Shown here piece after piece: positions 5,743 through 19,403 of a stretch of DNA of 19,692 nucleotides. Positions within the stretch are counted from its first letter, which is position 1. Every line of letters starts with the position of its first letter. Below the pieces are notes generated by a model. That model saw nothing but the letters and a program-made list of their open reading frames with translations. It was not told where the DNA came from and made no database searches. The translations under genes and the position numbers were made by a program. The stretch is from an uncultured Porphyromonadaceae bacterium (lineage in GTDB: Bacteria; Bacteroidota; Bacteroidia; Bacteroidales; Muribaculaceae), in NCBI GenBank assembly GCA_947177605.1, contig CAMWUX010000003.1:1-19692 (forward strand), in the 5' to 3' direction.

Positions 5743-6675
5743 TTATTCTACGGTGGAAGTGATGGAATTATCGTCGGCCGGAGCTGACTTCTGCGGCAAC
5801 CGGAATGTGTAGGAGAGGGAGAAACTGCCGCCGAACGGAGCGCCGCGCTTGCCGTAGCCGGGGATATAGAGCGGTTTGCCGTAGGTCGATTTGCCTTCGT
5901 GGAGCAGAGCGTGGTAGATCACATCCCAGCCGAGCGAGAAACCTTTGGCTAAGTCCACGCGCAGGCCGGCCACGAATTCAAAGTACCCGGCCGTAGTGCG
6001 CTGGCTCGGAATCGAGATCTGCTCAGGTTCATTCCAGTATCCCGGCGCTAATGTGGCATTGGGGACGGAGTAGGAGAAGGGAGTGAAGCCGTAGCGCACA
6101 CCCACGTGTACCTGATAGCGCGGATCGCTGTTGTAGAGGATATTGTAGTTGACGCCCAGCTTGAAGTAGGGAGCCATCGGGCTGCGGTAGGTGTAATTCT
6201 GTCCGTCGGGGGTCATCGAAGCCTGACCGAGACCGAGCACGAGGATGGGATTGTAGCGGTTGTAGAGGCTCAGCTCGCCCCACACCTCGCCGAGACCGTA
6301 GTGCTGGCCGAGCAGGCGCATCACCGGATCCCATACGTTGACACCGGCGGTGACGGTGTAGAGCTTCGGATAGATATTACCCTTGGGCTTATTGTTGATG
6401 AGCGTGTCGACCCACTCCATACCGGTCACGGTGTCGATAAACACCACATTGCCCTTGTCGTCGTGGGTCTCGCGCAGCGTCGTGGGGCGTCCGTCGGGAT
6501 CGGTCTGCTCGGTCTTTGCGGCGGACGGTTGGCCGGGCTGCACCGGAGTGATCTTGCGCTGCGACTGCGCCATCAATGCCGATACACCCAGTATCATAGC
6601 CAATACCGGGAGCAGAAGCCGAAGGCGGGCCGACGGCCTACTGTTCGGTGCGGAAGTATATCTTGATTCTTTCAA
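5743..6675 (-). CDS. DUF6048-like outer membrane beta-barrel protein (intact copy)
   Basis: A 310-residue protein with a long N-region and Sec signal peptide (hydrophobic core about 18-36, cleavage likely after ALMA). It then has a polar linker (37-100) and alternating hydrophobic/aromatic beta-strands to the end, typical of a small outer membrane barrel. I assign it to DUF6048, the usual neighbour of DUF6452 in Bacteroidales. The function is unknown. Codons 1-191 lie inside the 877-bp tandem duplication and are identical to the start of the chimeric gene upstream. Codons from about 192 on (strands including YGFTPFSYSVPN and the C-terminal GSFSLSYTFRLP) are unique to this copy, so this is the complete parent gene. 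Its start overlaps the end of the upstream frame by 38 nt, implying translational coupling. Confidence 0.8.
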   Translation of the reverse strand: MKESRYTSAPNSRPSARLRLLLPVLAMILGVSALMAQSQRKITPVQPGQPSAAKTEQTDPDGRPTTLRETHDDKGNVVFIDTVTGMEWVDTLINNKPKGNIYPKLYTVTAGVNVWDPVMRLLGQHYGLGEVWGELSLYNRYNPILVLGLGQASMTPDGQNYTYRSPMAPYFKLGVNYNILYNSDPRYQVHVGVRYGFTPFSYSVPNATLAPGYWNEPEQISIPSQRTTAGYFEFVAGLRVDLAKGFSLGWDVIYHALLHEGKSTYGKPLYIPGYGKRGAPFGGSFSLSYTFRLPQKSAPADDNSITSTVE

Positions 6676-6978
6676 TGTCGGTATTGGTTATCAGTGAGTC
6701 CACGATCTCCACGGATTGGATGAGATGCCGCGTGTGGGTCATCCCGGTAATGGTATAAGTGAGCATCGCGCCACACTCTTCCGAGGCGAAGTAAGGCTCC
6801 GATGTGTAGGCGAAGGAGATGGTGTCGTTGTATTCCGGGCTGTCGATCCCACTCTGCGTGTAGTGGAATACGTAGGAGGTCGTGTTGTACTTGCTTCGGA
6901 AGGGCAGATATACCAGATGCAGACTTGTGCCGGAGGCGTAGAGCAGCGAGTCGGTAGCCTGCCCCACGCCGCTGATAT
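6102..6978. repeat. 877-bp perfect tandem duplication, copy A
   Basis: This block is repeated immediately at 6979-7855, offset 877 bp, and I found no difference comparing the two by eye. Identity stops to the left at 6101 (C, against T at 6978). To the right it stops after 7856, with 1 bp of shared sequence at the junction. The unit carries the first 191 codons of the DUF6048 gene and the last 113 codons of the DUF6452 gene. Confidence 0.95.
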
Positions 6979-7552
6979 CCACGTGTACCTGATAGCGCGG
7001 ATCGCTGTTGTAGAGGATATTGTAGTTGACGCCCAGCTTGAAGTAGGGAGCCATCGGGCTGCGGTAGGTGTAATTCTGTCCGTCGGGGGTCATCGAAGCC
7101 TGACCGAGACCGAGCACGAGGATGGGATTGTAGCGGTTGTAGAGGCTCAGCTCGCCCCACACCTCGCCGAGACCGTAGTGCTGGCCGAGCAGGCGCATCA
7201 CCGGATCCCATACGTTGACACCGGCGGTGACGGTGTAGAGCTTCGGATAGATATTACCCTTGGGCTTATTGTTGATGAGCGTGTCGACCCACTCCATACC
7301 GGTCACGGTGTCGATAAACACCACATTGCCCTTGTCGTCGTGGGTCTCGCGCAGCGTCGTGGGGCGTCCGTCGGGATCGGTCTGCTCGGTCTTTGCGGCG
7401 GACGGTTGGCCGGGCTGCACCGGAGTGATCTTGCGCTGCGACTGCGCCATCAATGCCGATACACCCAGTATCATAGCCAATACCGGGAGCAGAAGCCGAA
7501 GGCGGGCCGACGGCCTACTGTTCGGTGCGGAAGTATATCTTGATTCTTTCAA
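6638..7552 (-). CDS. Chimeric gene: DUF6048 N-half fused to DUF6452 C-part
   Basis: A 304-residue open frame created by the tandem duplication. Residues 1-191 are identical to the start of the DUF6048 protein, including the signal peptide and the first barrel strands. Residues 192-304, from DISGVGQATD to the end IKIYFRTEQ, are identical to the C-terminal 113 residues of the DUF6452 lipoprotein. The switch falls in the codon for Asp192 at 6977-6979. The product would be exported but has only about half the barrel strands and lacks the DUF6452 lipid anchor, so it may be unstable or a novel protein. It keeps the 38-nt overlap with each neighbour. Alternatively it is an assembly artefact. No function can be inferred. 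Confidence 0.75.
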   Translation of the reverse strand: MKESRYTSAPNSRPSARLRLLLPVLAMILGVSALMAQSQRKITPVQPGQPSAAKTEQTDPDGRPTTLRETHDDKGNVVFIDTVTGMEWVDTLINNKPKGNIYPKLYTVTAGVNVWDPVMRLLGQHYGLGEVWGELSLYNRYNPILVLGLGQASMTPDGQNYTYRSPMAPYFKLGVNYNILYNSDPRYQVHVDISGVGQATDSLLYASGTSLHLVYLPFRSKYNTTSYVFHYTQSGIDSPEYNDTISFAYTSEPYFASEECGAMLTYTITGMTHTRHLIQSVEIVDSLITNTDIERIKIYFRTEQ

Positions 7553-7855
7553 TGTCGGTATTGGTTATCAGTGAGTCCACGATCTCCACGGATTGGATGA
7601 GATGCCGCGTGTGGGTCATCCCGGTAATGGTATAAGTGAGCATCGCGCCACACTCTTCCGAGGCGAAGTAAGGCTCCGATGTGTAGGCGAAGGAGATGGT
7701 GTCGTTGTATTCCGGGCTGTCGATCCCACTCTGCGTGTAGTGGAATACGTAGGAGGTCGTGTTGTACTTGCTTCGGAAGGGCAGATATACCAGATGCAGA
7801 CTTGTGCCGGAGGCGTAGAGCAGCGAGTCGGTAGCCTGCCCCACGCCGCTGATAT
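6979..7855. repeat. 877-bp perfect tandem duplication, copy B
   Basis: The second copy of the 877-bp unit directly abuts copy A. Identity can be extended 1 bp to 7856. Its right end lies in a cluster of GATATC palindromes inside the DUF6452 gene. The junction between the copies joins GATATC to CACGTG. Perfect identity implies a very recent event or an assembly error. Confidence 0.95.
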
Positions 7856-8009
7856 CGATATCCGATATCGTGATACCCTCGCCCGTAGAGGAATAAAAGC
7901 CGGCAAGCGGCAGACTGTTCTGATTGTCGGTGCAGCCCGACGTGTTGCATCCCTGGCAGAGCAGCGATGCGGCGGCGGCAGCGATTATGGCAATCAGGAT
8001 CTTATTCAT
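7515..8009 (-). CDS. DUF6452-like lipoprotein (intact copy)
   Basis: A 164-residue protein with a hydrophobic N-terminus (residues 4-18) and a Cys-rich lipobox-like region (SLLCQGC, lipidation likely at Cys21), followed by NTSGCTDNQ. The mature part is predicted all-beta, with a single further Cys (SEECGAM). The Cys pair after the signal and the length fit DUF6452, a Bacteroidales-specific envelope family of unknown function normally encoded beside DUF6048. Codons 52-164 are inside the duplicated block and also form the C-terminus of the chimeric gene. Codons 1-51 are unique, so this is the complete parent. It starts 8 bp after the glycosyltransferase stop and is clearly in the same cluster. 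Confidence 0.8.
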   Translation of the reverse strand: MNKILIAIIAAAAASLLCQGCNTSGCTDNQNSLPLAGFYSSTGEGITISDIDISGVGQATDSLLYASGTSLHLVYLPFRSKYNTTSYVFHYTQSGIDSPEYNDTISFAYTSEPYFASEECGAMLTYTITGMTHTRHLIQSVEIVDSLITNTDIERIKIYFRTEQ

Positions 8010-9739: not shown

Positions 9740-10789
9740 TTAATTAACGTCATCTTTGTAAAGGACAACGTATGCACGGTTGATGAGCTCGTTGTCGAGA
9801 TCGACGTTCCAGAAGATGACTACGGTACGTTCAGCATTATCTTCCACAACACGGGCAGTGCCATTGTACTGGTAGAGATCGTACCAATCGATGCTGCTGT
9901 ATTGGAAGTAGAGCTTGCCTGTGACATCTTCACCAACTCTGGCCGACGCCGGGTACTCGATTTTGAGACCTCCATAATCGGAGCCCCAATAGTCCATCCA
10001 CCAGCCTATGGCCTTTGTTCCGTCATTTTCGGTGCTGAGCCAGGCGCCGTAACCCCAAGAACGCCAAGGGAAGTAGTAGGGTACAGTGTCGTCGGAAGGA
10101 TCTTTACATTTCCCGTAGACATTCGATTCGGTTTCGGCTAGGATTTCGTCGATATCAGCCTGTGTAAAGCCGTCGAATGTAGCTTCTACACTTACAGAGA
10201 ATGATGCACTGAGACCAGAGCAGTCGTGAACGGTAATTGTAGCAACATAGGGATCCTTACCGGATGTGGCTTTGAGCGAGATCTCACCAGTCTCCTCGTC
10301 AATGGAAGCTTCTACCTTTTCATTATCAGATTCGATTGTATATCCGCCATTGCCTTCAGCTACTTTTGCCTCGTAGTTGAATGAAGAGAAACCAAGGGGT
10401 GTAACGAAAGTAAGGTTCTCAACGGAGAGCGTCATATTATCAGTAGTGTATACCGAAACCACCAACTGCTTATAGTTGTTGGCGCCGTCAGATACTACGA
10501 TGCGAGCTGTACCGTTCTTGTAACCTTCGATGTAGAACTGATTGTTTTCTTCAATAACGTCAGCAATCTCAGGAGCTAATGAGAACGCGTGATAGTCGCC
10601 ATTACCGGATTCGATAGGGAGAAGAACACGGTTTTCGGATCCAATCTTAATACGCGTATCGTTAGATAGCACCAGATCGGTCTTATTATTAGCCGGTACA
10701 GGAGCATCATTGTCGTCGGAGCAAGATGTGAAGCCAACCATTGAGGTAGCGGCCAGCACCATGCTCATAAAAATATATTTCAATTTCAT
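9740..10789 (-). CDS. Surface lipoprotein with Ig-like repeats and aromatic-rich C-terminal domain
   Basis: A 349-residue lipoprotein, last gene of the PUL. The signal peptide ends in lipobox TSC23, followed by SDDND, an acidic stretch of the kind that sends Bacteroidetes lipoproteins to the cell surface. Two all-beta, Ig-like (BIG2/cadherin-like) modules follow, at about 35-117 and 118-205. The C-terminal domain (about 206-349) is unlike them and very rich in Trp/Tyr: YYFPWRSWGYGAW (238-250), GWWMDYWGSDYGG (262-274) and SIDWYDLYQY (299-308). Exposed aromatic clusters bind sugar rings in many surface glycan-binding proteins, so a glycan-binding role is inferred. I recognise no named family for this domain and no catalytic motif. 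It starts 21 bp after the GH18 gene and is followed by the terminator. Confidence 0.8.
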   Translation of the reverse strand: MKLKYIFMSMVLAATSMVGFTSCSDDNDAPVPANNKTDLVLSNDTRIKIGSENRVLLPIESGNGDYHAFSLAPEIADVIEENNQFYIEGYKNGTARIVVSDGANNYKQLVVSVYTTDNMTLSVENLTFVTPLGFSSFNYEAKVAEGNGGYTIESDNEKVEASIDEETGEISLKATSGKDPYVATITVHDCSGLSASFSVSVEATFDGFTQADIDEILAETESNVYGKCKDPSDDTVPYYFPWRSWGYGAWLSTENDGTKAIGWWMDYWGSDYGGLKIEYPASARVGEDVTGKLYFQYSSIDWYDLYQYNGTARVVEDNAERTVVIFWNVDLDNELINRAYVVLYKDDVN

Positions 10790-10810: not shown

Positions 10811-12208
10811 TTAAAGCCAGTCTTTTGTATACACCTTGCCGTCGTAAACGAGCTCATCATCATAGAGGAGGCGTGCGGAGGACTCCATAGCGCTCCGGCG
10901 CACTTGATTGCCGAAGTGAACATGCAATCCGTAGCCATTATTTCTAAGAGTGGTAAGGTTGCCGGATGTACGACCCTGAGAGAATTCCCAAGAGTAGATA
11001 CCCATATTAAATTTGGGGACACCAGGGAAGCCTGCTTCGTTGATATAGCTACCACCATAGTTGGTCCAGATGAAGTCCATAAATTCACCGGGCTCAACTT
11101 CATCTACAGAAGGAAGACTCGAGAAGTCGTAGGTGTAGATAATGTTGTCGCGTTCGGGCTGCAGTTTCTTCACTTCATAGAAGAGACGTGCGGCGGCTGC
11201 GCTGGAAGGACTTACGAAACCTGCGGGCGCAGGGGAGATAGGCTTTCCATACTCGGAGTTGTAGAACACGCCGTCGAGCTTGTAAACATCACAGAAGTTT
11301 TTGATTTCCTGAGCATAGTAGCGTGCTGTTTCGTCGGCGAGGTTATTGACGTTCGCACGGTCGTGATTGCCAAGAATCGAGAGATATACCTTAATACCAC
11401 GATCCTGAAGAGGTTTGAGATAGTGGTCGCGGTTGGCAAGGAGAGCGCTGACATTTTCATTGCAGCTAACATATACGCGTCCGGTCTCTTCGTTGTAGTT
11501 GATATTTGCAGCGAAAAGCATAACGGCATCATAGTACATCTTACCGCTGTTTTTGAGGGTGTAGGATGTTGCAACGAGCGGGTTGATATCATTGACCTCC
11601 ATACAGAACATGGTGCGTACGGCAGGGACTTCATTGCCATCGGCATCCAGAACGGTTTTGGTTGCGCTGCTGGGCAGATTGGTGAAGTCGCGGATAAAGA
11701 TAAGGCGAGTACTACTATTGTTGGTAAGACTGGCCTCGTTACTGCTTATTTTTGTACGAAGCGGAATTACATAGCCCTTGTCGCTGTCGAGTGATCCATC
11801 AGAAGTGACTGTCACCATCATCGGCTCGGAAACGGTAGATCCGGCAGCGAGTTTTGTCACACCTCCGTCGGACAGAGAGATCATCGATTCGGGTACAGCT
11901 TCATATTCTGTACCGTTAGCGGCATTGTACTCAGTTACAGCGGTGGGATCGTAAACGAAAGTTACATTGCAATCGTTATTGAGTGCGCCGGTAGCCTTTA
12001 CATACAAAGGAATATCCTGCGAACCGCGAATCTCTACATGTGTGTAGATACGCTTGCCGTCTTTGTCGGTCACAAATACTGCCTTAGAGGGAACAGCGAG
12101 ACCGGAGGTATCGGCGGATCCGATTACAACATCGTCTTCGCAAGCTGTGAACGAAGCAGCCACAACTATGGAGCAAAGACCATATGTAAGAAATTTGTTG
12201 AAATTCAT
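10811..12208 (-). CDS. DUF1735-GH18 protein, endo-beta-N-acetylglucosaminidase-like with altered motif
   Basis: A 465-residue surface lipoprotein (lipobox TAC23, then EDD). DUF1735 (about 38-172) precedes a GH18 TIM barrel (about 190-465) of the Endo H/Endo F1/EndoBT-3987 type. These enzymes cut between the two core GlcNAc residues of N-glycans. Endo H-like landmarks are YLSILGNHD (275-283) and the strand-4 motif LDGVFYNSEY (311-320). The usual motif is DxxDxDxE; here it is Asp312-Gly-Val-Phe315-Tyr-Asn317-Ser-Glu319. The acid/base Glu is kept, but the Asp that holds the substrate N-acetyl group is Asn (codon AAC, minus strand 11258-11260). Activity may be lost or altered. GH85 enzymes naturally use an Asn-Glu pair, so catalysis is still possible. 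It follows the LamG gene by 35 bp. Confidence 0.88.
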   Translation of the reverse strand: MNFNKFLTYGLCSIVVAASFTACEDDVVIGSADTSGLAVPSKAVFVTDKDGKRIYTHVEIRGSQDIPLYVKATGALNNDCNVTFVYDPTAVTEYNAANGTEYEAVPESMISLSDGGVTKLAAGSTVSEPMMVTVTSDGSLDSDKGYVIPLRTKISSNEASLTNNSSTRLIFIRDFTNLPSSATKTVLDADGNEVPAVRTMFCMEVNDINPLVATSYTLKNSGKMYYDAVMLFAANINYNEETGRVYVSCNENVSALLANRDHYLKPLQDRGIKVYLSILGNHDRANVNNLADETARYYAQEIKNFCDVYKLDGVFYNSEYGKPISPAPAGFVSPSSAAAARLFYEVKKLQPERDNIIYTYDFSSLPSVDEVEPGEFMDFIWTNYGGSYINEAGFPGVPKFNMGIYSWEFSQGRTSGNLTTLRNNGYGLHVHFGNQVRRSAMESSARLLYDDELVYDGKVYTKDWL

Positions 12209-12243: not shown

Positions 12244-13392
12244 TTAGGGTAATGAAACCGGAACCCAGGTGAGGGTGGAATTAGCGATGAGGTTGTAGCC
12301 GTTGGCGTAGTCAAGGATAGTGTTACCGGCACCTTCATTCATCTTCCAGTATGCAACCAGACCTACAGCGTCGACATCAACTTTGTAGAAATGATTTTTG
12401 GACTGAATTTCTTCCTTAGTCAGCACACGGTTCCAAACACGGAGTTCGCCCATATCACCACTGAAGTCACGGTTGTCGCTATAAGACTTACCTACATAGA
12501 ACTGAGAGCTATTCCAAGAAACGCTACCACGGTTGGTAGACGAAACGTCGCCACCCTTCTGGATACCATCAACATAGAATTGGCAAACACCTGTAGAGGA
12601 ATCGTAGGTGAAGGTGATGAATTGCCACTTCTCTTTTTCAATGGTCCACTGAGAGTTGGTCACGTTGGGCGAAGCAGCAAACTGAAGCTGCAGGGGATCC
12701 ACGCCAGAGTCGCCGAATCGGAGAAGCTTGACACCTTCGATACCGAGCAGGGTAGAGATACCGGCATCATTTCCATCGCCGAAAGCAGCCCCGGGACGTA
12801 TAAGAGCTTCTACTGTGATCTGTGACATATTTGCAAGACCGGAAGCACTGCCTGACGCAGATAGACTAAGGTTGTTTTCGTTAAGATTTGCTACCCAGTT
12901 GATGAGAGATGCACCACGAAGAACATAGTACTTGGTGCGCATACTTTCAAGCACAGGAATGGAAGAGTTGGCTACGGTGACAGGGAGACAGTAGATGAGT
13001 TCATCGTCAATCTCAGAAAGATTCGTGATCTGAAGAGTAACGCCATCAGATGTTACGCCACCAGGCTTAATTGTAGCGACGGGATCAGCGATAGTGTAGA
13101 ACTCGGAGGGAAGAATGACAGTATGGGCATTGTAGATCTTATTGTATACATCAACAAGAGAGGGATCTACTGCATAGGTTATTTTCACCTCCTGAGTTGC
13201 AGGCTGCGGTATCTGAGCCTGCAGGGTGTAAGTAGCTTCTTCTACTTCTCCGTCAAGATATAAGGTGGTCACATTTGTTGTGCCGTCGACGAATACTTTA
13301 TTGTCGAACGTCTCCCGATTTTCGTTGCATGCGCCTAAGAAAGCTCCGGCAACGACAATGGTGCAAATCGACAGATATTTTGTTTTTTTCAT
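12244..13392 (-). CDS. DUF1735 and LamG domain lipoprotein, surface glycan-binding candidate
   Basis: A 382-residue lipoprotein (lipobox LGAC22, then NEN). DUF1735, a beta-sandwich found in Bacteroidetes PUL proteins, covers about 30-160. A LamG/concanavalin A-like lectin domain covers about 165-382, with the typical strands WQFITFTYDSSTG (256-268), FYVDGIQKGGDVS and the closing FSGDMGELRVWNRVLTKEEI. No glycosidase residues are visible. Known relatives beside GH18 enzymes act as surface glycan-binding proteins that present glycan to SusC/SusD, and I infer that role here. It lies 21 bp after the GH18-like gene and 35 bp before the DUF1735-GH18 gene. Confidence 0.88.
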   Translation of the reverse strand: MKKTKYLSICTIVVAGAFLGACNENRETFDNKVFVDGTTNVTTLYLDGEVEEATYTLQAQIPQPATQEVKITYAVDPSLVDVYNKIYNAHTVILPSEFYTIADPVATIKPGGVTSDGVTLQITNLSEIDDELIYCLPVTVANSSIPVLESMRTKYYVLRGASLINWVANLNENNLSLSASGSASGLANMSQITVEALIRPGAAFGDGNDAGISTLLGIEGVKLLRFGDSGVDPLQLQFAASPNVTNSQWTIEKEKWQFITFTYDSSTGVCQFYVDGIQKGGDVSSTNRGSVSWNSSQFYVGKSYSDNRDFSGDMGELRVWNRVLTKEEIQSKNHFYKVDVDAVGLVAYWKMNEGAGNTILDYANGYNLIANSTLTWVPVSLP

Positions 13393-13413: not shown

Positions 13414-14433
13414 TTACATATTGCCCGGATTGAGAAGCTGGAGCGCCCCACGGATCACAGGATAAGGATTGGGAAGGCTATAGTAATCGTGAACGATATT
13501 GGTAAAACCGGCAGCCTTAACGTCTTCACCATTTGCCCAGTCGGCAAGAGCTGTGACGGCAAGCTGGCCATCGGCCATATATCCTACCTTTTCATCAGCG
13601 GGATCTGTAAATGTGGTAATCATACCGAAGCGATCGGTAGGAACACCATCGACAGAGGCTGCTGCTTTTGCCATGGCGAAGCCATAGGTGGAATTTGCAG
13701 TTTTCGAATCGGACAGGAATATCACATGACAATCGTTGACGAGATCCTTGTTAGCTACATTCTGAGGTTTGCCACAGAAGTCGATTTGCATTTCGGGATT
13801 TCGGGAATGCCAGTCGTTAAGGATACCGATGAAAGTATTCTCATTGTTTTTGTATTCCGTCAGTTCTGCCGGGGTCAAGTGATTGGTTAGTTTACCGTTA
13901 TAACCGATCATAATGCCATCGAAGTTTTTGGCATACGACAAGGCTGTGGCTGTGGAATCGGTCAAGAAATCAAGGAAGTCGACAGAGTAGGGCTCTTCTT
14001 CGGTCGCAAGCGCCTGATTAGCAAGATAAGCAAGCTTGAGGGCATCGAAATCAATTACATATGTAAATTTGATGCCTCGTTCTTCACGTGCTTTTTCCAT
14101 CTCAGCTAATGTAGCGGATGAAATATCAGTAGGATTAGTGAGTACTACGAAATCGACAGAATCGGGCAGAGCGTCAACGCGCTGAGCACGGGTATTATAG
14201 TCAGCTGTGGCGCTGGGGTTATCGAACCATAGGTAAGCGAGCTTATGATCCGAATCGCGGTATTGACGGAGGCTTTCAAGATATTTGGCATAAGCAACGG
14301 GATCGGCCTGTTCCGGGGTGTTGTAGATGATATCAACACTTTTGGGTTCGGTCCAGTCGTCGCAAGCGGTGAAAGATGCTCCGAAAGCAGCAACCATCAA
14401 TGCCGACGCAAGATTTTTAATTTTGTTATTCAT
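13414..14433 (-). CDS. GH18-like lipoprotein without catalytic residues (glycan-binding candidate)
   Basis: A 339-residue lipoprotein (lipobox FTAC24, then DDW). The domain after about residue 60 has the strand/helix pattern of the GH18 barrel: strands at LAYLWF, VDFVVLTN, IKFTYVIDF and NFDGIMIGYNG, with helices between. The strand-4 motif reads Asp172-Gly-Ile-Met-Ile-Gly177-Tyr-Asn179, so the Asp and the catalytic Glu of DxxDxDxE are Gly and Asn. It cannot use the normal GH18 mechanism. Position right after SusD matches the GH18-like, non-enzymatic glycan-binding protein of EndoBT-3987-type loci, and I infer that it binds glycan at the surface. It starts 40 bp after SusD. Confidence 0.85.
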   Translation of the reverse strand: MNNKIKNLASALMVAAFGASFTACDDWTEPKSVDIIYNTPEQADPVAYAKYLESLRQYRDSDHKLAYLWFDNPSATADYNTRAQRVDALPDSVDFVVLTNPTDISSATLAEMEKAREERGIKFTYVIDFDALKLAYLANQALATEEEPYSVDFLDFLTDSTATALSYAKNFDGIMIGYNGKLTNHLTPAELTEYKNNENTFIGILNDWHSRNPEMQIDFCGKPQNVANKDLVNDCHVIFLSDSKTANSTYGFAMAKAAASVDGVPTDRFGMITTFTDPADEKVGYMADGQLAVTALADWANGEDVKAAGFTNIVHDYYSLPNPYPVIRGALQLLNPGNM

Positions 14434-14473: not shown

Positions 14474-16039
14474 TTAGATACCAGGTTTGCAAGCCCACCA
14501 TACTTTGGTCGCCATATTGTCGGGTCCGCCAAGATAATTATCCACAGCGTAGTGGATGTTGACGCTGTTGTTGGTATATTCTTCCTGCGGATAAGGCATA
14601 CGCTGTGCTCCCTTATTGGAGTCAACGATACCACCTGAGGCATTCATTGCTGGTGGGATGAGTTTGGGATAGCCGGTACGGCGGTAGTCCGCCCAAGCTT
14701 CGTTGCCAAGATACATATTTGCTATCCACTTCTGAGTTATGATTCGCTCCTGCTTAACTTCCTTAGATGCGTTTTCATCCCATTTGATTGTAATGGTAGA
14801 AATGGTGCCATTGTAAGGATTGGAGTTGTCAGGGCACGAATATAGTTCGGGCTGAGAGGTGGAATCGTTGATGTAGTCAGTGGCATCACCGCATCCATAT
14901 TGATTAAACGAAAGTTGGATGCCATTATTGTAGAACTGCTCGGCGGTACCACCCATATTCCATCCAAATACGGCCACTGCTTCGGCACGAAGGAATGAAA
15001 CTTCGGCAGCAGTCATCCAAATAGAACCGTCGGTTGCTTTAATGCCGAGACCGGAATACAACCCGAACGAGGGAACGACTCTCCAGCCTCGACGAACACC
15101 AATATAGCTACCATCAGGGGCTTGAGAGAAGTATGCTGCACGACGGGGGTCGTTGTAGCCATTCATATAGCATACGATATCGGCTGCGGGACGGGAGTCG
15201 TTGTTGTAGCCAATAGTAGCACCATAAATCGGGTTGCCACCGGTCTTATAGTGGTCGTAGATAGCGTTGTCGGCATTCGATTCGATCACGCCACCGGCAA
15301 TAGCCTCTTCAGCTTTCTTCTGGGCAAGAGTGGGGTTGGCATAGGAGATACGCATAGCCAGACGCAGTTTGAGAGAGTTTGCAAACTTAATCCATTTTAC
15401 GGGATCGGTCTGATATACGTCATCGATAAGCGGGGCGCGCACGTTGTCCATACATTCGTAGAAGCCAGCGATACATTCGTCGATTTCTTCGAAGAATTTG
15501 TTGTAGACTTCTTCCTGAGAGTCGTAAGGAGTAAGAATACTGCCGTCGAAGCCTATTTTGCTATAAGGAATAGGACCATAACAGTCGGTAACGCGGTGCA
15601 TAGCAGCAACCTTAACCAGACGTGCGATGTGGGCGGGAAGCATGTTACCGGAAGTCTCGGAGTAGCCCTCGATTATGGCGAGATTGACGTAAACCGTCGG
15701 TATAATCGAATTGGGATTAGCTTCCATAAATACACGTGTCCAGCCGTTGTTGCTATTGAATGCAGCGATCTGATTGTCGCGGAAGCCCTGGTTGCCGTCG
15801 GCAAAATAGCCACCCACAGTACCGCCAAGCAGACAATCGGTAAACTGGGTCATATTGACGTCGGATGGAATTACGCGGCCAAATACGGCATACATCGACG
15901 AGGTCAATGCGTAGTTGTCGGCATCCAGACTTCCGGGCTGATACTGGTTGGCATTTATGTTTTCAAAATCGCCTGTACAAGCCGACATTGCTAACGCGGC
16001 CATCGAGCAAGCGATAAATTTATTGAATATTGCTTTCAT
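14474..16039 (-). CDS. SusD/RagB family outer membrane lipoprotein
   Basis: A 521-residue SusD-like protein, the lid of the SusC channel that captures glycan at the cell surface. The signal peptide ends at lipobox MSAC21. The mature protein begins TGDFENINANQYQPG and is largely helical (TPR-like). Stretches such as MLPAHIARLVKVAAMHRVTD and WIKFANSLKLRLAMRISYAN are characteristic of the SusD-like_2 type. The C-terminus holds EAWADYRRTGYPKLIPPAMN, the conserved WxEFRRxGYP-like box of the family. It lies 15 bp after SusC, and the two products are expected to form one complex. The substrate is inferred from the GH18 neighbours, not from this sequence. Confidence 0.95.
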   Translation of the reverse strand: MKAIFNKFIACSMAALAMSACTGDFENINANQYQPGSLDADNYALTSSMYAVFGRVIPSDVNMTQFTDCLLGGTVGGYFADGNQGFRDNQIAAFNSNNGWTRVFMEANPNSIIPTVYVNLAIIEGYSETSGNMLPAHIARLVKVAAMHRVTDCYGPIPYSKIGFDGSILTPYDSQEEVYNKFFEEIDECIAGFYECMDNVRAPLIDDVYQTDPVKWIKFANSLKLRLAMRISYANPTLAQKKAEEAIAGGVIESNADNAIYDHYKTGGNPIYGATIGYNNDSRPAADIVCYMNGYNDPRRAAYFSQAPDGSYIGVRRGWRVVPSFGLYSGLGIKATDGSIWMTAAEVSFLRAEAVAVFGWNMGGTAEQFYNNGIQLSFNQYGCGDATDYINDSTSQPELYSCPDNSNPYNGTISTITIKWDENASKEVKQERIITQKWIANMYLGNEAWADYRRTGYPKLIPPAMNASGGIVDSNKGAQRMPYPQEEYTNNSVNIHYAVDNYLGGPDNMATKVWWACKPGI

Positions 16040-16054: not shown

Positions 16055-19000
16055 TTAGAAGTTGAAGTTGACATTGAAGCCATAGCTACGGAGCGAGGGC
16101 ATCATAAAGTTATCCATACCCTGATAGTAGTTGCCCGCGGATGCTACGGCTTCGGGATCAAACGGAGCCTTGTTGTAGATCATCCAGAGGTTGCGGCCTA
16201 CGAGCGATACCTTGATGTCACATACGTTGCCGAGCCATTTACGGGGAATCAGATAGCTGATAGATGCTTCCTGAAGGCGAACGTTTGTAGCAGAGTAGGT
16301 ATAGTATTGGGGAACCATATCAGAAGAAGCGATGGTGGTATACCATGTTTCGGGATTGATGCGGTCGCCATCGTTTATTGTTACATAGCCGAGATCACGA
16401 GCATTTCCGGTTGCCTCGGATACACCATAGAGGTCGAGAAGAGCCTGAGTGCGGGAGAATACAATACCGCCGAAGCGAGCAGAGAACATTACGTTTGCAG
16501 AGAGATTTTTCCAGCGGAATGTGTTGGACCATGCAAGGTTGCCCTTGGGCAGTACGCTACCGAGTTTAATATAGTCCGATGCGCTCTTGATGGCGCTCTG
16601 AGCGGTGTTGCCATCCTGATCGACATAGATGTTGCCGTTGGCATCACGGAGAACGTCTGCCGACGAATATAGGTCGCCCATAGACCCGCCTTCGCGAAGG
16701 ATGAAGTGGGTTGCACCAAGGTTATTGCCGTCGCCAACTTCAATCTGATCCATTGAGAATATTTCGCCGGTAACGGGATTCTGGACATTGCGGGCAAGCT
16801 CGCGAATCTTGTTGCGGTTAAACGAGAATGTTGCGCTCGAATTCCAAGTAAAGTCACCCCATGTATGGTTGTAGCTAAGGGCAAATTCCATACCCCAGTT
16901 GCGTACGTTACCAGCCTGAATGTAGAGGCGGGAGTATTTGCCTACGGCGAGGTTGGGGTTGAAGGTCTGGTTGTAGGTGTCGGCCAGATACCAGGTGGCA
17001 TCGAAATTGAAATCCTTGAAGAAGCGGACGTTAGTACCAACTTCCCACGACTTCGTACGCTCAGGCATAAGATTGTTCATAGGATACTGGGTGAGTACCT
17101 GCCAAGCGCCATCACGCCATTCGTAGCGAGGATTGGCGATGTGGCGGGGGAATGCAGTACCTACTGAAGCCCATGAAGCACGTATCTTCCAGAATGTAAG
17201 ATATTCGGGGTTGACGTTGACTCCGGCGTTGGCGAGCATCTCGGTCATAAGCACGGAGACACCTACAGATGGATAGAAGTAGCTCTTAACTTTGGAGTTG
17301 GGGCCGTAGAGCTGTGAAGGCCAGTCGTTACGACCGGTTACGGTGAGGTAGTATGTCTGCTTGTAGCCGAGGTCGGCGGAAGCGTAGAGCGACTGGGTCT
17401 GCTCGTGCCAGCCATCCTGAGTCTTGCTGGGCTGCGCGCCAATGTTGTTGATGAAGAAGCCGTTGGTCAAGCCAACCTTCTGTCCTGCGTAATCGCCCTC
17501 ACCGTCGGAGATGCCACCGTTGATAGAGAATGAAGTAAATCTCATATCGGAAATCGATCCACCGAAGTTGGCCTGAAGATTGAGGTCGGGGGTGAGATCC
17601 TTGCTGAACGAAGCGAGGAAGTCGGCAAATATCTGCTTTTCTTTGTATCGGTTTTCTCCATACCAGCCGCGCTTGGAACTGTTGACGAGGTTGTCGGTAG
17701 TAGAAGCGTAGCGCTTATCGGTGGTGTTGGTGTTGGAATTATCGATGCGTACACGGCCGCTAAGAGTGAGGTAGGGAAGAACCTTATATGTGAGCTGACC
17801 ACCGAGCATATAGCGATCCTTATAGCTGTCGCGGAGGTTGCGGTAGTTGACCCAGTAGGGGTTCTGAACGTAAGCGGCATAATCGCCATAGCGCCAGTTC
17901 TGTTCGCTGATATTACGCTCCGAATTCCATTTCTCATACATCCGGACATCGTTCCAATCTGATCCGCGAGGAATAAGATATGCGCCGGTAATGGGGTTCA
18001 TATACATACCCTGGTTGACCATGTTGCGGTCGGTCTGATAGATGTAGCTTGCATTCACATCGAGAGTGAGCTTATCATCCAGGAAATTGGTAGTGTTGCG
18101 GATTGAGAAGTTGTAACGATTATACTTGTCGTTGGGTACGATACCGTTGGAGTTGACTGCTGCTGCGGAAGCGTAGGTCTGGTTCTTGTCAGTACCGGTA
18201 GAGAAAGTAACAGAGTTGGTGGTTACGAAGCCGGTGCCGAGATAGTCTTTGCCGACATCATAGCCATAGTCGGTATAAGGATTAAGAGGCGCGCCCCAGC
18301 TATAGGAGGAGTTGGGGTCGTATGCTCCATACTGACCGGCGCCGTAGCGGTTCTGGAAACGGGGAAGGATCCATGCTGAATTCCACTCGTTGTTTGTGCT
18401 CACGGTGAGTTTTACTTTTCCGGCCTGACCCTTCTTGGTGGTGATGACGATAGCGCCGTTGGCAGCTTCGCTACCATAAAGAGCGGCAGCGGCAGCACCG
18501 GTGAGGACAGACATTGATTCGATATCGTCAGGGTTGAGGTCGGCGATAGGCTCGGTAGCACCACTGGAACCGAACGCGCCTGCATCACCTTCGCTGCGAG
18601 CACCACGCATCGGCATGCCGTCGACAACGTAGAGAGCGTTGGAGGACTGCATAATGGACTTCGAACCACGCATCACAACCTTCGAGATACCGCCGGTACC
18701 AGACGAAGAAGCGTTGATGTTGACACCGGCTACCTTACCTGCCAGAGAGTTGACAAAGTTGGCGTCGCGGTTGGTGGTGAGTACATCGCCGGAAAGCTGC
18801 TGTACGTTGTAAGAAAGTGATTTCTGCTCGCGCTTGATACCGAGGGCTGTAACCACTACTTCGTCGAGAGAGTGGGAGTCTTCGATCATCACTACGTCGA
18901 GGCTTGCACCGCTGACGGTGTGAGATTGGGTGGCAAAACCTAAGTATGTAAACTTAAGCACATTGCCCTGGGTAGCAGCGATGGTGTATTCACCATCGAA

Positions 19001-19162
19001 GTTGGTCTGAACACCTGCGTTAGTGTTAACGTTCACGACGGTAACTCCAATGAGGGGCTCGCCATTGCTATCTGTCACCGTACCAGAGACCTTCGACTGG
19101 GCGAATGCCAGCACCGGGAGGCACATCAGACAGAATAACAGACTTGTTACCTTTGCCTTCAT
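16055..19162 (-). CDS. SusC/RagA family TonB-dependent outer membrane transporter
   Basis: A 1035-residue TonB-dependent transporter that imports the glycan bound by SusD. The ATG at 19162 gives a clean signal peptide (MKAKVTSLLFCLMCLPVLAF, cleavage after AFA). A carboxypeptidase-regulatory-like domain (about 24-98, KVSGTVTDSNGEPLIGVTV) is followed by a SusC TonB-box-like segment LDEVVVTALGIKREQKSLSY. The plug is about 115-230 (LAGKVAGVNI, VVMRGSKS, ALYVVDGMPM), and the 22-strand barrel runs to the end, with a C-terminal Asn/Phe-rich strand SYGFNVNFNF. The frame stays open 52 codons upstream, but that stretch has no signal peptide and lies in the leader. It is the first PUL gene, 385 bp from purB, behind two candidate promoters. 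Confidence 0.96.
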   Translation of the reverse strand: MKAKVTSLLFCLMCLPVLAFAQSKVSGTVTDSNGEPLIGVTVVNVNTNAGVQTNFDGEYTIAATQGNVLKFTYLGFATQSHTVSGASLDVVMIEDSHSLDEVVVTALGIKREQKSLSYNVQQLSGDVLTTNRDANFVNSLAGKVAGVNINASSSGTGGISKVVMRGSKSIMQSSNALYVVDGMPMRGARSEGDAGAFGSSGATEPIADLNPDDIESMSVLTGAAAAALYGSEAANGAIVITTKKGQAGKVKLTVSTNNEWNSAWILPRFQNRYGAGQYGAYDPNSSYSWGAPLNPYTDYGYDVGKDYLGTGFVTTNSVTFSTGTDKNQTYASAAAVNSNGIVPNDKYNRYNFSIRNTTNFLDDKLTLDVNASYIYQTDRNMVNQGMYMNPITGAYLIPRGSDWNDVRMYEKWNSERNISEQNWRYGDYAAYVQNPYWVNYRNLRDSYKDRYMLGGQLTYKVLPYLTLSGRVRIDNSNTNTTDKRYASTTDNLVNSSKRGWYGENRYKEKQIFADFLASFSKDLTPDLNLQANFGGSISDMRFTSFSINGGISDGEGDYAGQKVGLTNGFFINNIGAQPSKTQDGWHEQTQSLYASADLGYKQTYYLTVTGRNDWPSQLYGPNSKVKSYFYPSVGVSVLMTEMLANAGVNVNPEYLTFWKIRASWASVGTAFPRHIANPRYEWRDGAWQVLTQYPMNNLMPERTKSWEVGTNVRFFKDFNFDATWYLADTYNQTFNPNLAVGKYSRLYIQAGNVRNWGMEFALSYNHTWGDFTWNSSATFSFNRNKIRELARNVQNPVTGEIFSMDQIEVGDGNNLGATHFILREGGSMGDLYSSADVLRDANGNIYVDQDGNTAQSAIKSASDYIKLGSVLPKGNLAWSNTFRWKNLSANVMFSARFGGIVFSRTQALLDLYGVSEATGNARDLGYVTINDGDRINPETWYTTIASSDMVPQYYTYSATNVRLQEASISYLIPRKWLGNVCDIKVSLVGRNLWMIYNKAPFDPEAVASAGNYYQGMDNFMMPSLRSYGFNVNFNF

Positions 19163-19282
19163 AAATTTTGGTGTTTGATTAATGAATAAATGTGATATTA
19201 GGTTAATAAATAGGTGACGGACGGGAAAGGCATAGCGAAGCCGAAATCGCGAAAGACAACTTTTACACGACTTCGACGGATG

Positions 19283-19313
19283 CAAATCTGTAATGTTGAA
19301 AAATGAATGCAAA
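19283..19313 (-). promoter_or_regulatory. Candidate proximal SusC promoter P2
   Basis: On the minus strand a perfect -33 TTTG (19310-19313) is followed after exactly 19 bp by CAGATTTG (19283-19290), which differs from TAnnTTTG only in the first base. The transcript would have a leader of about 115 nt. Confidence 0.45.
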
Positions 19314-19403
19314 TTCACTTTTTCAGTTGGTATTATTTAAAATATTGGTGTGGTGGCAGAGATTTATGACAGTTATTGAGATTCTACGCGTCGATTCCGC
19401 CAT

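Follow-up and report, generated by a model that had tools for sequence, protein, structure and literature searches.

In a window of 19,692 nucleotides (the whole stretch of DNA analyzed here), a GH18 endoglycosidase-type lipoprotein carries Asn in place of the Asp that stabilises the oxazoline intermediate, and this Asn is fixed in a clade of 18 database proteins. Fold, register of the motif, core glycan contacts and synteny are those of a known endoglycosidase type. We read the protein as an active surface-anchored GH18 endo-beta-N-acetylglucosaminidase (ENGase) with GH85-like Asn-Glu chemistry, a reading to which we give slightly better than an even chance. The clade is of interest as a natural test of how the Asp/Asn residue sets the reaction, since evolution has fixed Asn here in an Endo F1-type site that is for the most part unaltered otherwise, and it could supply glycan-remodelling tools. 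Were its members inactive, they would be high-mannose lectins made by a near-isosteric change.

The protein, its motif and its locus

The protein and the residues discussed below are located as follows.

10811..12208, minus strand: GH18 endoglycosidase-type lipoprotein, 465 aa, ATG start
11252..11275, minus strand: catalytic motif D312-G-V-F-Y-N317-S318-E319, from codons and conservation
11258..11260, minus strand: N317 (AAC), replacing the oxazoline-stabilising Asp, from conservation and alignment
11252..11254, minus strand: E319 (GAG), by homology the general acid/base, present in 18/18 clade members
11057..11059, minus strand: Y384, equivalent of EndoBT-3987 Y380 (acetamide contact, role from an excerpt of PMC7021837), kept in 18/18 clade members

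By sequence and fold similarity across the whole barrel, the nearest solved structures are Endo F1 (2EBN) and EndoBT-3987 (3POH, 6TCV), and the protein is a GH18 high-mannose endoglycosidase of this kind. Its N-terminus looks lipoprotein-type by eye (SFTAC23EDD), a BT_3987-like beta-sandwich is matched by Pfam at residues 55-157, and the GH18 barrel occupies about residues 199-464. EndoBT-3987 shares this two-domain architecture and has N379 at the position of N383, whereas Endo F1 is devoid of the beta-sandwich domain, has a longer loop 8 and carries Asp at the N383 position. The earlier note had read the motif from D312 to E319 with an AAC codon at 11260-11258, and the open reading frame bears this out (GAC312 GGC313 GTG314 TTC315 TAC316 AAC317 TCC318 GAG319, with the D312 codon at 11275-11273 and GAG at 11254-11252). 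It had also placed N317 on the GH18 Asp located two residues before Glu. Endo F1, which reads DGVFFDDE with Asp-Asp where the clade has Asn-Ser, aligns without gaps through the motif, and N317 falls on its oxazoline-stabilising Asp. EndoBT-3987, unlike the clade, keeps the Asp (D312).

Since the D-x-E pair of GH18 ENGases (DXXDXDXE / DGxxxDxE) is replaced by N-S-E in all clade members (18/18), we file the clade as a variant beside the GH18 ENGase family and not as a canonical member. An Asn-x-Glu pair is found in GH85 ENGases, and N317-S-E319 matches their D-G-x-x-x-N-x-E, a resemblance in mechanism only. That GH85 enzymes use Asn where GH18 has Asp, as claimed previously, is stated in the excerpted text of PMC8374693 and agrees with the motifs of Endo-A (DGWFINQE) and Endo HS-alpha (DGINYNWE). 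GH85 ENGases are longer, multidomain proteins, unlike the window protein, which has no PF03644 (GH85) match at E up to 0.1 in the Pfam search. GH85 is likewise absent among the fold-search matches listed, which give no evidence of a different fold.

The gene belongs to a set of six co-oriented genes, in the order SusC, SusD, PF16141 lipoprotein, BT_3987_N plus LamG lipoprotein, N-x-E protein and a further lipoprotein. The five partners are:

16055..19318, minus strand: SusC-like TonB-dependent transporter (Plug, CarbopepD_reg_2)
14474..16039, minus strand: SusD-like lipoprotein (PF12741)
13414..14433, minus strand: PF16141 (BT1044-like GH18 fold) lipoprotein, a pseudo-GH18 without D-x-E pair (DGIMIGYN)
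12244..13392, minus strand: lipoprotein with BT_3987-like N domain and laminin-G-like domain, probable surface glycan-binding protein (Pfam, synteny)
9740..10789, minus strand: lipoprotein without Pfam match over the cut-off, probable surface glycan-binding protein (synteny)

Judged by eye, the GTG start listed for the SusC-like gene probably lies upstream of the true one, for which MKAKVTSLL at residue 53 is a likelier candidate. The six-gene order is identical in 22 of the 80 best named-genome loci, which come from Bacteroides, Dysgonomonas, Marinifilum and others, and the first five genes are present in 20 more. The fifth gene is D-x-E in all 22 six-gene loci, so that the N-x-E protein takes the endoglycosidase slot. 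On its gene content the locus is a Bacteroidales N-glycan uptake locus (PUL), with SusC-SusD, co-oriented predicted surface lipoproteins and an ENGase slot. The high-mannose PUL of EndoBT-3987 also comprises SusC/SusD and surface binding proteins; as published it adds periplasmic mannosidases (PMC7021837, excerpt), of which Pfam finds none among the main window proteins. Among the nine remaining main proteins of the window are YidC, CTP synthase, RpiB, a short-chain dehydrogenase, DUF6048, DUF6452, a family 2 glycosyltransferase and DUF4199; they are housekeeping proteins or of unknown function, and none is a glycosidase.

The PF16141 neighbour reads DGIMIGYN, which fits the earlier proposal that the N-x-E protein is the only GH18-fold protein of the window locus keeping the Glu. 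Neither a D-x-E nor an N-x-E pair was seen in the 46 rows of this neighbour family, which makes it a conserved pseudo-GH18 of the locus type; Glu is at the acid position in 6 rows. It is a regular member of such loci (window and L036-L082), with glycan binding as its probable role. Related GH18-like proteins, BT1284 and a B. faecium protein (8W01, DUF1735 plus a GH18 barrel), also lie in glycan loci with altered catalytic residues.

Some loci of the comparison have an unusual organization. In L070 (19400 bases) four LamG-type and three GH18-type genes alternate within one locus, and shorter LamG/GH18 arrays are present in L071, L075, L077 and L082. In L062, a 3.9-kb contig, two D-x-E endoglycosidase gene ends with neighbouring lipoprotein genes face each other. 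L040, titled Paenibacillus sp. MAG, carries this Bacteroidota type of locus; its match has the same contig coordinates as that of G191, a genome of the window's family, and its title looks wrong.

Fixation of Asn-Ser-Glu in one clade

Motif counts were made on the query and the 120 listed of 339 matches: 18 proteins are N-x-E, 102 are D-x-E and one is a fragment without the site (P0023, 71% identity to the query). The 18 N-x-E proteins are the query and its relatives at 72-86% identity among the matches listed. Every listed protein of at least 72% identity having the site is N-x-E, and the next relative stands at 53%. A point missed in the earlier note concerns the residue between the pair, which is Ser in 18/18 clade members, Asp in 99 of the 102 D-x-E relatives and Cys in 3. 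The question raised there, whether Asn is conserved in the clade, is answered by N-S-E in all 18 members among the matches listed. The Tyr of YNSE is ancestral (it is present in P0018 and P0020-P0022), and only N and S are derived.

A second search, using as query the barrel of the first-branching clade member (441 matches, best 120 listed), led back to this clade and added 55 new proteins, each of them D-x-E (54 recognised by pattern, P0128 read individually). D-x-E is thus found in 157/157 more distant proteins (102 + 55) among the matches listed in both searches, where the intermediate motifs D-S-E and N-D-E were not seen. The GH18 proteins of the genome loci give the same picture: with identical ones counted once, the 107 aligned comprise 105 D-x-E proteins, the query, and a piece of the query gene without the site. 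No second genome with a match above 55% identity was found among 34 genus, 397 family and 393 order genomes and the best 80 named-genome loci, a scan which may omit the window's own record; a second draw of 396 family genomes returned known matches only.

A tree of 71 rows was computed after masking both motif columns. Its 13 N-x-E rows group in a single clade (SH-aLRT 100), which requires one change of state. The stem of the clade is 0.57 and the N-x-E subtree of 13 rows totals 1.56 substitutions per site. The tree search was a quick one, the deep forks are weak, and outside the clade some branches are long; the N-x-E clade itself is not in doubt.

An error of sequencing or assembly, or a misalignment hiding another Asp in register, could in principle create such a residue, the more so as the genome is fragmentary (1.4 Mb, 247 contigs, 63.8% complete) and contains an exact tandem duplication of 877 bp some 3 kb from the gene. 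The Asn is however common to 17 other database proteins reading N-S-E, and the Endo F1 alignment has no gap through the motif; an artefact is in our view extremely improbable, refuted in practice by the homologues. The duplication extends over 6102-7856 of the window (878 bases from 6102 recur at 6979, offset 877) and is either very recent or an assembly artefact. At its junction the start of DUF6048 is fused to the end of DUF6452 (ORF 6638-7552), and intact DUF6048 (5743-6675) and DUF6452 (7515-8009) ORFs flank the fusion.

Asn occurring naturally in a GH18 protein has a precedent in print. Leishmania GH18 chitinases read DGIDFNWE, in which, as in the clade, Asn takes the place of the third Asp of the GH18 motif and the Glu is kept; activity is cited for the L. 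mexicana enzyme (PMC13231604, excerpt). One dataset paper reports, in its excerpt, that bacterial expression of Leishmania chitinases gave inactive aggregates (PMC7490738). These chitinases are protist proteins and not ENGases, and they retain an Asp at the second Asp position of DXXDXDXE, where the clade has Phe. No Asn-fixed GH18 endoglycosidase clade in print was found in a limited search of the open-licence literature, consulted as excerpts; within that search, the N-S-E clade would be a newly noticed variant of a known GH18 endoglycosidase type.

Conserved and altered positions in the barrel

Counting columns with at least 95 letters, 28 barrel columns are invariant across the 102 D-x-E rows. 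The clade leaves 27 of them untouched and alters column 317 only, which argues for a targeted change rather than decay. Identical in 18/18 clade members are E319, Y320, Y358, Y384, E408, F432, N235 and N250; E204, N206 and D207 are kept in the 17 members with letters there, and H282 in 17/18. In terms of EndoBT-3987, whose glycan-contact residues have their roles described in the excerpted PMC7021837, the clade keeps E200, N202, D203, F227, N230, N245, E314, Y315, Y380, E401 and F429, with H277 in 17/18. The exception is P0006, in which window residue 282 is Asp; this His contacts Man(-3) in EndoBT-3987.

Other contacts differ. The loop 1 Asn (N208 of EndoBT-3987), which 97/102 relatives have, is replaced by V, T or E in clade members. 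At the N403 position they carry S or T, most relatives having A, N or S there. S432 falls in a stretch deleted in the clade, where 93/102 relatives have Asp. The F198 position is Cys in the clade, as it is in 93/102 relatives. N383 replaces an Asp present in 96/102 relatives, EndoBT-3987 having Asn. Several residues are missing from loop 8 and one from loop 5. There are 16 clade-diagnostic barrel columns, of which 317, 318, 407, 430, 433 and 434 (S318, W407, V430, G433 and N434 beside N317) are in or close to the active site, the Q-to-W change at 407 adjoining E408; 198, 200, 230, 254, 258, 308, 357, 379, 397 and 437 have no known active-site role.

These changes, with the altered N208 and N403 equivalents, the D383-to-N replacement and the loop 8 deletion, would suit an active enzyme that Asn, Trp407 and the shortening of loops 5 and 8 have fitted to another N-glycan or acceptor, possibly a transglycosidase. 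ChiA-D313N and ChiB-D142N have a lower Km and more transglycosylation (PMC5505975, excerpt), and the excerpted review PMC10154615 calls GH18 ENGases hydrolytic only and GH85 ENGases able also to transfer glycans. Yet the core high-mannose contacts are unchanged and ten diagnostic columns are without known active-site role, and we regard such a shift of substrate as quite unlikely.

The same alignment bears on a second alternative, in which the D-to-N change ended turnover, the contacts were kept and the protein became a high-mannose N-glycan-binding surface protein, another enzyme (e.g. GH85) doing the cutting. The core contacts kept in the clade and the long stem with remodelled loops are consistent with this, and catalytically mutated BT3987 (PMC7021837) and BT1285 (PMC11180146) still bind glycans, according to excerpts of both papers. 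Against it, E319 is fixed in 18/18 members with Tyr384 kept, although the clade shows no variation in 177 of 271 barrel columns and the conservation of E319 is for this reason weak evidence of catalysis by itself. Furthermore N317 is fixed and not drifting, whereas the pseudo-GH18 neighbour has 27 different residue pairs at the catalytic positions in 46 rows, a rough yardstick taken over a much larger divergence than that of the clade. The locus would also then have no endoglycosidase, no other glycosidase being matched by Pfam among the 15 main window proteins. Known Bacteroidales GH18-like pseudoenzymes of the BT1284 type lost both acids and the binding residues and are catalytically impaired, and for BT1284 high-mannose binding was not measurable (excerpt of PMC11180146); the clade, in contrast, keeps E319 and the core contacts. 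A pseudoenzyme is a serious alternative, to which we nevertheless give less than an even chance.

GH85 in the same genus and the favoured reading

The window genome contains two GH92 mannosidase genes, and a GH85 gene on another contig together with one match below the cut-off. A PF00704 search of this genome gave no match, but the profile also misses the window protein itself. Of the 34 same-genus genomes 12 have GH85, as against none of 27 other genomes, and PF03644 matches occur in 16 of 344 other genomes of a phylum-wide sample, two of them strong. In the genus, GH85 and this type of locus co-occur (8/11 against 4/23 genomes, Fisher p 0.005, kinship ignored), which fits a pseudoenzyme assisted by GH85; for the active enzyme, the GH85 gene of the window genome counts as a contrary point, as it could do the cutting.

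Motif counts for same-genus GH85 cover 20 of 31 places (L118-L137). They read D-G-x-x-Y-N-S-E in 18 loci and N-S-E in 19, with N-Q-E in 1, so both derived residues of the clade, N and S, are those of the GH85s in its genus. DGWFINQE is instead the motif of L154 and L155, the two strong Bacteroidota GH85s from outside it. There is a further likeness between clade N383-Y384 and the N-Y located on the next-but-one strand of GH85, an equivalence drawn by eye at a position where EndoBT-3987 also has Asn; the Tyr of that strand is required for activity in Endo HS-alpha (PMC12961652, excerpt). The likeness in Y-N-S-E suggests convergence, given moderate weight only, as a D-to-N replacement is likely to arise and Ser is a frequent residue. 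That the GH18 clade independently reached the GH85 apparatus (Asn, the Y-N-S-E of the same-genus GH85s, and an Asn preceding the strand-6 Tyr), as a natural hydrolase/transglycosidase on a GH18 scaffold, is a tentative idea that we consider doubtful. Gene conversion from a same-genus GH85 was rejected, the codons AAC TCC shared with the genome's own GH85 gene being too short a stretch and a few substitutions sufficing. The GH85 genes of the genus at L118-L137 are divergent and multi-copy, with up to 6 matches per genome.

The earlier note had offered a pseudoenzyme or a GH18 using GH85-like chemistry. What it said of the GH18 ENGase type, the Asn site and the kept Glu stands, and of its two options the GH85-like enzyme is favoured. 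The active enzyme is preferred to a lectin because Asn-bearing GH18s are cited as active or transglycosylating and known pseudoenzymes lost both acids. Also counted in its favour are the fixation of N317 across the whole N-x-E subtree, the endoglycosidase slot, the N-S-E of same-genus GH85s and the Leishmania precedent. On the other side stand the changes at N208, N403 and S432, the long stem, W407, loop 5, and the published glycosynthases: hydrolysis by GH18 ENGases was removed by mutating exactly this Asp (PMC8374693, excerpt), in line with the earlier statement that its replacement lowers hydrolysis. An activity figure for an engineered GH18 ENGase D-to-N mutant (e.g. D130N) was not found in a limited literature search.

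As an active endoglycosidase, the clade protein would cut the chitobiose core of high-mannose N-glycans through substrate-assisted catalysis. E319 would act as acid/base, N317 would orient the C2-acetamide and stabilise the oxazoline intermediate as the Asn of GH85 does, and Y384 would hold the acetamide. The action of the GH85 Asn is itself unsettled, with different hydrogen bonds in Endo-A and Endo D (PMC12961652, excerpt). At the cell surface, where the protein is predicted to be anchored, the LamG lipoprotein, the pseudo-GH18 and the last lipoprotein would bind the released glycan, to be imported by SusCD. The balance between hydrolysis and transfer, or the pH profile, may differ from that of D-x-E enzymes.
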